Shown: positions 37,627 to 41,628 of the stretch, piece by piece
Layout: the number at the start of each line of letters is the position of its first letter
Position numbering within the stretch: position 1 is the stretch's first letter
DNA from: Methylomonas sp. 11b
Lineage (GTDB): Bacteria > Pseudomonadota > Gammaproteobacteria > Methylococcales > Methylomonadaceae
Length of the DNA: 64,000 bases
NCBI RefSeq assembly: GCF_000515215.1
Contig: NZ_KI911557.1
Span: 2,909,741 to 2,973,740, forward strand
Reading direction: 5' to 3'
Translations under genes and position numbers: made by a program
The notes under the pieces: model-generated
What the model saw: the letters and a program-made list of their open reading frames with translations, nothing else
The model's database searches: none
What the model was told of the DNA's origin: nothing

Positions 37627-38307
37627 ATGTTTTCTTTGATTTCCTCATCGAGCAACGCATGGCAGCGGGCCGCCCAGCTATTCATTACGATTGCCAGCAT
37701 TCTGACAATAGGCAAATTAATTACGCTAGTACCAGTAATGACGGAATTGGAAGTGGCTGGTGTATTCAAGGCTGCGGCCGTAGTCTGGTTTTTCGCCAGG
37801 CTGGCGGGATTAATCTTGTTTTATTTTTTTGCCGGCTACGTTATAGAAGCCATTCCCAATAGCGGCGGTGCGTTGTCGTTTGCCAAAGGCATTGCGGAGC
37901 CGTTAACCGCTCTGTTGATTTTGATTACAGTGCAGGCGTTGTTTTGGGAGTTATTGGCGCCGTTCGTCGATAGCTTAGGTAGAACGATTTACCATAGTAG
38001 CGCGATCATTCTGATCGTAAGCGTCAGTATTTGGTTTGTGGTCAGGGCGTATAGCCATGCAACTTACTTGGTCGATACCGTTGCCAAGCTGGTTGAAATG
38101 TTATCAAGGTTTCTCCCCCAACAAAAATTGACCTGTCAGCAATGCGGCGCCGACATTACCGCAAACACTCATTTTTGTAATACCTGCGGACACAAAACCC
38201 AGTCATCCAATACATGTCCCGCATGCGAAACCACTGTTCCGGTTGATCAACAATATTGCCAGAATTGTGGATCGAAGCTTGGCAAGACAACAGTTACTGA
38301 CAGTTGA
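37627..38307 (+). CDS. Membrane protein with C-terminal double zinc ribbon
   Basis: A 226-residue protein with about four hydrophobic helices in residues ~15-145, then two zinc-ribbon units: CQQCGADI...CNTCGHK and CPACETTV...CQNCGSK (eight cysteines in CxxC pairs). Such double zinc ribbons (DZR type) bind zinc and often mediate protein contacts. The function of this membrane-ribbon arrangement is unknown. It is monocistronic. Confidence 0.72.
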   Translation: MFSLISSSSNAWQRAAQLFITIASILTIGKLITLVPVMTELEVAGVFKAAAVVWFFARLAGLILFYFFAGYVIEAIPNSGGALSFAKGIAEPLTALLILITVQALFWELLAPFVDSLGRTIYHSSAIILIVSVSIWFVVRAYSHATYLVDTVAKLVEMLSRFLPQQKLTCQQCGADITANTHFCNTCGHKTQSSNTCPACETTVPVDQQYCQNCGSKLGKTTVTDS

Positions 38308-39489: not shown

Positions 39490-41628
39490 ATGCTCAGCTT
39501 AAACCTCCAACTACCAATGAATGCTTCATTAAAACGATGCATCAGGCGGCAATATTTGTTTGATGTTGGTGCGGCTATTTTGTTTTTCGGGGCGCTAACA
39601 CAGCAAGTTGAATTACGGCAAACCGCAACTGTTGCCGCTAGCGAACTCGCGGCACAGGGCTACAAGATACCTAGCGAGGATGATCCGGTGCGGGTGTTTC
39701 CCGCGTTGACTAGCGGGGCATTTAGCGGCAGTCATGCCGGGGGCTGGCGGCCAGGCAGTATTTATCTGCGGCAACAACCACAGGGCGGGCTGAGCGAAGC
39801 GGTGTATCTGCGTCACGAACTGTTTCACGAAGCCAGTCATCGCAGCTGTGGCGGTCGTCTACCGGCTTGGGCAGAAGAAGCCGGGGCGATGCATTTCAGC
39901 GGCGAGTTGGCTGATCTCGAGCCCGGACGTTTACCCAGTGAACTTGAACTACAAAGCATCAAGAATCGGGTTAGGCAGGGCGCCGAATTAGATGGCAATG
40001 ACCGGGCGGTATTGGCGCGATTGTTGGTTAATGCCGGCTGGCCCCGAGAACCTTGTACCGTGTCGACAAAATTAACTGAAATACTGGGCGTGGCGTTCGA
40101 CGATGCCGGAGATAGCTCGTATCTGTTGATGAGCCTACTGTCCGGGCGGATATTGACGAGCGGCGGGGATCAATCCAGTCGTTTACCTCCTGGGTCGCTG
40201 TTGAAAATTCCGTATGCTGCGGCATTGGCACAAGCCGATGCTGATTTGCTGGGTGCAGAACTGGCGGCGAGCGAGACTGAAAAGCTATTGCAGCGTCGCG
40301 AGCAATTTCAAATCGAGCGCTATCGTCTGTTATTGTCGCCGATTAAAGAGCAAAATCTTCCAGCTCAAGTGGCTCCATCGGATCCGCAAGCCTGGCGCTC
40401 TTATCTGGGCGAACGCAATGCCGACGGCGATTTTGCCTTACAAGCCAATTTGCCGGAATTGGCCTTGGCGATGCGGGCAGCCTTGCTATCCAAGCCCGAT
40501 TATTTTCGTGGCTTGAGCCAAAACGGTATCTTGCCCAACTCCACCTTGGCGGGGCAAAGCGAGACAGATAGAAAGCTGTTGCGCCAACTTCAAGTTCTAG
40601 CCAAAACCGGCACGGTTTCGACTGTTGACGGCCACCCCTTGGCTGGTCATTTACTGCTGGCCTGGCCGGCTACGAATCCGGTATTTCTGGCGATATTTAG
40701 GCAACGCGGCGTCAATGGCGCGTCAATATTAAGTAAAGCCGCAGCCTTGTTAAGAAACTGGCAGCACGACTATCCGGCCCGTTTTGCTGCGGTTAGGGTT
40801 AGTTTGTTAACGCCTACCGATCCAGATAGCTGGAATGAGGAGCCGGACTGTCCGTTAGTCGCTAACCAACACGGGCGCTTTACGGTTTGCGGGCAAATCA
40901 GGATCGTTTCCAGCGCACGTGGCAGCCGATCCGAGCGGGTGGTGAAAGGTGTTCTGCGACAAACAAACGAACAGGGGCCGACGGTGCTGGAAACCGATGT
41001 CGATAGCTATGTGGATGGCGTATTGGCTGCCGAGGCACAAAATCTGGCTGGTAGCGCCCGCGAAGCGATGCGAGCGGTGATCGCCTGGAACGGCAGTCAC
41101 GGTAACCATAGGCATAATGAATCAAGCTCCCTTTGCGATACCACGCATTGCATGGTCTATCTCGGCGAGTTGCCTGGGAACAAGCTACGTCGTAGCAGTC
41201 ATATCGATATTGCTTTAATACAGCTTTTGGACCAGTTGGCGACCGAATCCGGATTGAACTGGTTGCCGTTTGCCAACGGCGGCGATCAGCGCTGGCAAAG
41301 GCAGCTCTCAAGCGAGGAGTTGCGCCGGGTGTTTACGGAAAATCAAATTCTGGATATTCGCCGCGAACGGCACAAAGATGGCGAGTTGTTTATCAGATTA
41401 TTTTATCCGACCAGCGAAGAGCTGCTCAGTTGCGAGATTTTTCGCAATACCCTGAAACTACCTTCTTGTCCTGATTCGGTAACAGCTGCCGATGACCAGA
41501 CTTGGCAATTTACAGGCATAGGTGCCGGGCACGGCCTGGGCTTATCCATCGCCAGAGCTCAAGCTTTGGCGGAGGCAGGTCGTGACGCAGAACAGATTTT
41601 GCGCGATGCGTACGGACAGAGCCGTTAG
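39490..41628 (+). CDS. Three-part envelope protein: HExxH + SxxK/KTGT + SpoIID domain
   Basis: A 712-residue protein with an N-terminal hydrophobic anchor (about 22-40). Residues ~60-140 hold HELFH (109-113) followed by LPAWAEEAG, the pattern of a gluzincin-type zinc peptidase. Residues ~230-410 hold GSLLK (S236-xx-K239) and KTGT (372-375), the first and last motifs of penicillin-binding proteins and serine beta-lactamases. Residues ~480-710 match SpoIID/LytB: SYVDGVLAAEAQNLAG, CDTTHCMVYLG and GHGLGLSIARAQALAEAG. SpoIID proteins cut or bind glycan strands and activate amidases. The combination suggests a peptidoglycan-processing enzyme. A relation to the E. coli YfaQ type (DUF2300) is possible but unchecked. 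ATG 39490 or 39517 may be the start. Confidence 0.72.
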   Translation: MLSLNLQLPMNASLKRCIRRQYLFDVGAAILFFGALTQQVELRQTATVAASELAAQGYKIPSEDDPVRVFPALTSGAFSGSHAGGWRPGSIYLRQQPQGGLSEAVYLRHELFHEASHRSCGGRLPAWAEEAGAMHFSGELADLEPGRLPSELELQSIKNRVRQGAELDGNDRAVLARLLVNAGWPREPCTVSTKLTEILGVAFDDAGDSSYLLMSLLSGRILTSGGDQSSRLPPGSLLKIPYAAALAQADADLLGAELAASETEKLLQRREQFQIERYRLLLSPIKEQNLPAQVAPSDPQAWRSYLGERNADGDFALQANLPELALAMRAALLSKPDYFRGLSQNGILPNSTLAGQSETDRKLLRQLQVLAKTGTVSTVDGHPLAGHLLLAWPATNPVFLAIFRQRGVNGASILSKAAALLRNWQHDYPARFAAVRVSLLTPTDPDSWNEEPDCPLVANQHGRFTVCGQIRIVSSARGSRSERVVKGVLRQTNEQGPTVLETDVDSYVDGVLAAEAQNLAGSAREAMRAVIAWNGSHGNHRHNESSSLCDTTHCMVYLGELPGNKLRRSSHIDIALIQLLDQLATESGLNWLPFANGGDQRWQRQLSSEELRRVFTENQILDIRRERHKDGELFIRLFYPTSEELLSCEIFRNTLKLPSCPDSVTAADDQTWQFTGIGAGHGLGLSIARAQALAEAGRDAEQILRDAYGQSR

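Follow-up and report, generated by a model that had tools for sequence, protein, structure and literature searches.

Bacterial alpha-2-macroglobulins (A2Ms) have been sorted into two types. Type I carries a thioester and often lies beside PbpC; type II is without the thioester and is encoded in a six-gene operon (PMC5764988). MagD of Pseudomonas aeruginosa traps a protease, the Mag proteins assemble on MagD and the complex is stabilised by MagB. Deletion of magE (PA4488) resulted in larger MagD forms, read by the authors as possibly unprocessed protein; for MagE itself, that paper suggests only a chaperone role or help in signal-peptide cleavage (PMC5764988). Further, magD protects the bacterium against the peptidoglycan-cutting type VI secretion effectors VgrG3 and, to a limited extent, Tae1 (PMC12663445). 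In E. coli the genes are ordered yfaA-yfaT-yfaS-yfaQ-yfaP; yfaQ (b2226, Pfam DUF2300) is located directly behind the macroglobulin gene yfaS, which is a pseudogene in strain MG1655. Here we examined a 64,000-nucleotide stretch of the genome of the methane-eating bacterium Methylomonas sp. 11b (contig NZ_KI911557.1, positions 2,909,741 to 2,973,740, forward strand; the window). It contains a gene for a protein which joins a zincin-like, a penicillin-binding protein (PBP) transpeptidase-type and a SpoIID-type module in a single chain. According to our best reading this protein takes the place of YfaQ/MagE in a system whose macroglobulin has a thioester, and would couple the handling of peptidoglycan to a zinc peptidase.

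Genomic companions of the three-module gene

The distribution of the gene was examined in 61 related genomes, its own genome included; most carriers were from one genus. The three-module gene was present in 23 genomes and DUF1175, which with DUF2135 and the A2M marks operons of the yfa/mag kind, was present in 23, and these were the identical genomes. Macroglobulins with a bMG10 domain were found in 32 of the 61, all 23 carriers among them; the other nine had neither DUF1175 nor the three-module gene. A naive Fisher value of 2.7e-17 for the 61 genomes ignores kinship and is not relied on. All nine genomes reached via loci of the gene have DUF1175. Judged by their identical places, five of these repeat genomes of the 61; four were new, one of them from a Syntrophobacteraceae. 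DUF2300 was found in none of the four and in none of the 61, the 23 carriers included.

A second sample of 299 genomes was spread evenly over the phylum. Twelve of these had DUF1175, and one, the genome of the window, had the three-module family. DUF2300 scored above its cut-off in 11 genomes, and these were the other 11 with DUF1175. Thus, each DUF1175 genome in this sample has either the three-module family or DUF2300. Six of the DUF2300 genomes had one match (frames of 134-237 amino acids), five had two (frames of 544-1304 amino acids). One further genome had a DUF2300 match below the cut-off with five stops and was devoid of DUF1175.

In three loci the gene immediately follows that of the macroglobulin. 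L008 (Methylovulum miyakonense) and L013 have the order DUF2135-DUF1175 protein, 568-residue protein, alpha-2-macroglobulin, three-module gene; L011 is a short contig cut within the macroglobulin gene, the end of which precedes the three-module gene. Elsewhere the distances are larger. Of the 23 carriers, four had the gene and DUF1175 at most 15 kb apart and 11 had them on the same contig with at least 58 kb in between; in the remaining eight they were on separate contigs. In its own genome the macroglobulin operon (L034) is about 390 kb away from the three-module gene; a frame of 264 amino acids (L034:9433-10227) is located there between the genes of the 562-residue protein and the macroglobulin. 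Methylocucumis oryzae (L064) is an exception to the operon, as DUF1175 and the 568-residue protein are encoded there with no macroglobulin gene seen beside them. Shared presence in the same genomes together with adjacency in three loci ties the gene to an operon of the yfa/mag kind. Within these samples the link to the macroglobulin system is strong, and we consider it highly probable that the three-module protein is a part of that system.

All macroglobulins of carriers that were examined had the thioester motif CTEQ (5 of 5 and 2 of 2). Outside the window, CTEQ macroglobulins were seen in the DUF1175 operons of L034, L008, L013, L036, L038, L062 and L063. An operon of the yfa/mag type can therefore go with thioester chemistry. 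In other operons, the macroglobulin of L044 had CAEQ and that of the Pseudomonas-type L051 had no thioester motif. The published split into types I and II does not cover these macroglobulins.

A preliminary description of this DNA had drawn attention to wall genes in the neighbourhood. Genes for L,D-transpeptidases, an Lpp-like protein and MtgA are indeed near the three-module gene in the window, and they were retained in eight of 16 loci (L002-L007, L010, L012). They were not retained in the other eight; three of these loci are cut or consist of short contigs. These neighbours would fit a general peptidoglycan-remodelling enzyme which works with them and not with a macroglobulin. Such an enzyme would act on stem peptides or cross-links, with cleavage by the zinc peptidase and trimming or rejoining by the PBP-type module, and on the glycan, which SpoIID would cut. 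All three module kinds are known from wall work. However, half of the loci are without these neighbours, and the gene shares its 23 genomes with DUF1175, so that we regard a remodelling enzyme of this sort as unlikely. Because they were kept in only half of the loci the wall genes were set aside as functional context, and the L,D-transpeptidases are probably no such context. The alpha-2-macroglobulin operon with DUF1175 is the steadier companion. The window further encodes, at 37627-38307, a protein of 226 amino acids which is hydrophobic in its N-terminal part, ends with two zinc-ribbon-like CxxC pairs and has weak NCBIfam matches only.

Three conserved modules in one chain

The inner ATG of the frame (Table 1) is the likelier start because the matching database protein (P0001) has 703 residues. 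The gene is present as a single copy (one contig, 5.4 Mb). Two profile searches each returned 178 homologues, of which 120 were listed each time; as the second search again gave 178, more distant relatives were not reached. The 120 proteins listed from the first search and 25 new ones from the second yielded an alignment of 145 distinct relatives, including P0001, to which the counts below refer. Named sources among the matches listed were Methylomonas, other Methylococcaceae, Syntrophobacteraceae/Syntrophobacter and an unclassified proteobacterium.

Table 1. Features of the three-module gene and of related operon proteins. Coordinates without a locus name are positions in the window.
Feature	Residues	Position	Strand	Observation
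Gene of the three-module protein		39490..41628	+	open frame of 712 amino acids; likely start ATG 39517, giving 703 amino acids
Hydrophobic stretch, possible signal or anchor	22-38	39553..39603	+	G27, A29, G34 invariant in 25 sequences
Zincin-like module	40-205	39607..40104	+	predicted model has strands, a helix with HExxH (103-120) and one with the Glu (126-137)
HELFH	109-113	39814..39828	+	H109, E110, H113 identical in 144/144 rows with a letter
W127-A-E-E130, likely third zinc ligand E130	127-130	39868..39879	+	W127 and E130 identical in 144/144 rows with a letter
PBP transpeptidase-type module	201-431	40090..40782	+	fold comparison of predicted model
S236-L-L-K239 (SxxK)	236-239	40195..40206	+	S236, K239 in 145/145; opens helix 235-244 of model
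S261-E-T, candidate SxN motif	261-263	40270..40278	+	S261 in 145/145; triplet SDT in 127/145
K372-T-G-T (KTG)	372-375	40603..40614	+	K, T, G in 145/145; strand 370-377 of model
SpoIID-type module	432-712	40783..41625	+	TIGR02669, Pfam SpoIID and PDB SpoIID matches
E515, counterpart of C. difficile SpoIID catalytic E101	515	41032..41034	+	HMMER alignment; E in 145/145
H542...C549...H553-C554, counterpart of C. difficile SpoIID zinc site	542-554	41113..41151	+	all four in 145/145
G680-H681-G682, last SpoIID block	680-682	41527..41535	+	G680, H681 in 144/144 rows with a letter
Stand-alone HExxH protein		L044:8520-8897, L046:3860-4264, L048:8118-8528		yfaQ/magE slot
Operon protein of 562-568 amino acids in YfaA/MagB place		L034:10224-11912, L008:3111-4817		no Pfam match

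The proposed make-up of zinc, PBP-type and SpoIID parts was borne out, and all three are strongly conserved among the 145 relatives. Fourteen motif residues (H109, E110, H113, E130, S236, K239, K372, T373, G374, E515, H542, C549, H553, C554) were all intact in 143 of the 143 rows that extend over all three modules; two further rows have gaps in coverage. The three-module motif pattern is real and well beyond chance.

In the zincin-like module, LPAWAEE spans residues 124-130. One of the 145 rows is gapped at the zinc motif, and the remaining 144 all display the gluzincin pattern (peptidase clan MA) of HExxH with a downstream Glu. Of the two ligands initially considered, E130 (Glu in 144/144) is likelier than E129 (139/144). 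PDB sequence searches with this module and with the PBP-type module (13 sequences each) gave nothing credible; a catechol dioxygenase (E 0.86) and a kinase (E 0.5) were judged to be chance. The fold lists for both models, 50 rows each, were taken up by the PBP-type domain, and we therefore claim no absence of zinc or SpoIID folds. A viral fold library searched with the full model gave 604 matches, none reaching E 0.001 (the top row, without a name, had E 1.7e-3, the second, a phage S11 carboxypeptidase, E 5.2e-3, and an SprT-like row E 1.5); these were not used.

The PBP-type module has the fold of the PBP transpeptidase/serine beta-lactamase superfamily, with SxxK within GSLLK (residues 235-239) and KTG. 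Fold, SxxK and KTG are in common with class B PBP transpeptidases (FtsI) and class D beta-lactamases. Different from these, the module alone had no Pfam match and its SxN motif is a candidate; in addition, no pedestal domain was seen, and the domain is fused to zincin and SpoIID modules. Originally no SxN motif had been recognised, and it was suggested that the middle domain may bind rather than cut. A candidate was now found at residues 261-263; a second one, S283-x-V/I, is less conserved (Ser in 129/145). Because SxxK, KTG and S261 are invariant, the proposal of a domain which only binds appears weakened.

The SpoIID-type module matched Pfam SpoIID at residues 498-559 (E 0.0023; 18.9 bits, below the curated cut-off of 23) and NCBIfam TIGR02669 at residues 643-705 (E 3.1e-10; 40.5 bits, below the cut-off of 83.3). 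PDB SpoIID entries were matched at E 0.0045 and 0.0058. The host bacteria of this family are not known to sporulate. The module has the Glu, four candidate zinc ligands and the last block GHG in common with the SpoIID of C. difficile, a lytic transglycosylase with a zinc site; differences are its place in a three-module chain and the scores below the family cut-offs. The aligned ligands in C. difficile are H134, C140, H145 and C146, with C549 one residue off C140, and E101 is the catalytic residue there (PMC6221140). By this likeness the module would be a lytic transglycosylase.

Two cysteine pairs bear on the location. C454 and C467 were both Cys in 140 of 145 relatives and both replaced in the remaining five; C648 and C660 were both Cys in 144 of 144. 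Paired loss of the former and retention of the latter speak for disulphides and, thus, for a location outside the cytoplasm, where the protein probably works. By hydropathy, the strongest membrane-like segment reached only 1.36 over 19 residues and a multi-pass region was not seen.

In BlaR1 an HExxH (M56) peptidase within a multi-pass membrane part is followed by a penicillin-recognising sensor domain, i.e. the zinc-PBP order is the same as here. Possibly the PBP-like domain receives a peptidoglycan fragment or a beta-lactam and, upon acylation or binding, switches the zinc peptidase, which in turn would activate the A2M, with SpoIID as a wall anchor or a glycan opener. Yet the best fold matches of the protein were PBP transpeptidases, a multi-pass region was not seen by hydropathy, the invariant catalytic Glu of SpoIID would be needless for an anchor, and YfaQ has another module order; the addition of SpoIID and the other partner genes also differ from BlaR1. 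We consider such a sensor improbable.

Invariance of the motif residues speaks for working active sites, and we take it as fairly probable that all three modules are active. Conversely, the protein could have a structural task in assembling the A2M complex, its enzyme-like domains doing no more than bind peptidoglycan. The formation of the Mag complex on MagD with MagB as its stabiliser (PMC5764988) is in line with this, as is the uncertain SxN motif. The fourteen active-site residues, intact in every complete row, argue against it and make it very unlikely.

Comparison with YfaQ and MagE

YfaQ shares the slot that immediately follows the macroglobulin gene and also has PBP-like, SpoIID and HExxH modules. 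The domain order is different: zinc-PBP-SpoIID here versus PBP-SpoIID-zinc in YfaQ. Further differences are KTG here versus KTW in YfaQ and the four candidate zinc ligands of SpoIID in the present family; SpoIID and the PBP fold are common to both, whereas HExxH plus Glu is shared as a motif only. MagE is likened by operon position alone, as the modules were compared in E. coli YfaQ. The SpoIID modules of the family and of YfaQ were similar (hhalign 71.5%, E 3.6e-5), and a comparison of the whole chains found the SpoIID stretch only (9.9%). For the zinc and PBP modules, hhalign found no direct homology to their YfaQ counterparts. A YfaQ profile retrieved two angiogenins and, at E 0.34 to 0.48, SpoIID entries, but nothing else.

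Neither the whole protein nor its separate modules matched PF10062 (DUF2300). With this, and with DUF2300 in none of the 61 genomes, membership in that family was rejected. In YfaQ itself (L021:4149-5798) the two 'tandem DUF2300' matches are on different modules, residues 84-205 on the PBP-like and 412-532 on the HExxH module. Consequently, 'tandem DUF2300' perhaps does not reflect a true duplication, and the Pfam name may mislead.

The yfaQ/magE slot could be read cleanly in four of ten stretches (L044, L046, L048, L051; frames overlapping a longer one by more than 30% were dropped). Between the macroglobulin and YfaP genes this slot can hold a stand-alone HExxH protein of 125-136 amino acids. 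The zinc peptidase is the only module left in these shortest versions.

The preliminary description knew of no described enzyme with all three parts. YfaQ carries the same three kinds of modules in a different order, although among the matches listed no text describing YfaQ in this manner was found. Among the matches listed from the open-licence PMC literature there was no paper on the architecture or on named domains of YfaQ/MagE. We rate the architecture as new as a variant of a YfaQ/MagE-like kind which is already known but uncharacterised.

A proposed role in the macroglobulin system

Taken together, we lean towards the view that the protein is a component of a yfa/mag-type A2M system, where it has the role of YfaQ/MagE. 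The altered MagD forms upon magE deletion and the protection by magD against some peptidoglycan-cutting effectors are in its favour (PMC5764988; PMC12663445). A number of points weigh against it. The zinc module had no match in Pfam or PDB sequence searches. The similarity to YfaQ is limited to SpoIID (hhalign 0.3% for PBP against PBP and 0.7% for zinc against zinc). The 568-residue operon protein in the place of YfaA/MagB showed no sequence resemblance to it, and gave no match with YfaA. The N-terminal stretch is only weakly hydrophobic; over 19 residues it scores 1.31, against 1.37 for E. coli YfaQ by the same measure. MagE was reported as a cytoplasmic protein which does not bind the complex stably (PMC5764988), and magD afforded no protection against TseH and was not needed against B. 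thailandensis (PMC12663445). Kinship is not corrected for in the genome counts, with carriers mostly from one genus. Finally, in a Thermotoga maritima control, searched for DUF1175 and DUF2300 only, DUF1175 was present and DUF2300 absent.

How might such a component operate? The PBP-like and SpoIID modules may bind or cut peptidoglycan at sites of wall damage. Thereby they would bring the zinc peptidase to the damaged peptidoglycan, or repair it. The zinc peptidase may act on the A2M, in its maturation or activation, or on proteins which the A2M has caught. The protein would then couple wall repair to protease trapping, as was proposed for PbpC beside type I A2M (PMC5764988). With PbpC, likewise, a PBP-type protein goes together with a macroglobulin that has a thioester; different from PbpC, the present protein is not a glycosyltransferase/transpeptidase, and the operon is a yfa/mag one that includes DUF1175 and DUF2135. 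This particular mechanism, a zinc peptidase acting on the macroglobulin or its captives with wall modules at damaged peptidoglycan, is put forward tentatively. A more pointed version, a damage-gated activator of a complement-like bacterial trap, appears rather doubtful to us: here the wall modules would read or open damaged peptidoglycan and so switch the zinc peptidase, which arms or clears the thioester macroglobulin. The same device of three parts would then have arisen in two lineages, each with its own domain order, from a zinc peptidase as the minimal core.

Should the MagE/YfaQ slot indeed be occupied by two three-module proteins of different order, both with zinc-peptidase, PBP-like and SpoIID modules, they would offer definite residues for mutation, and wall work and protease trapping could be tested as a single mechanism. 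The protein described here probably is an overlooked working part of a protease-trapping system which resembles a part of animal immunity.
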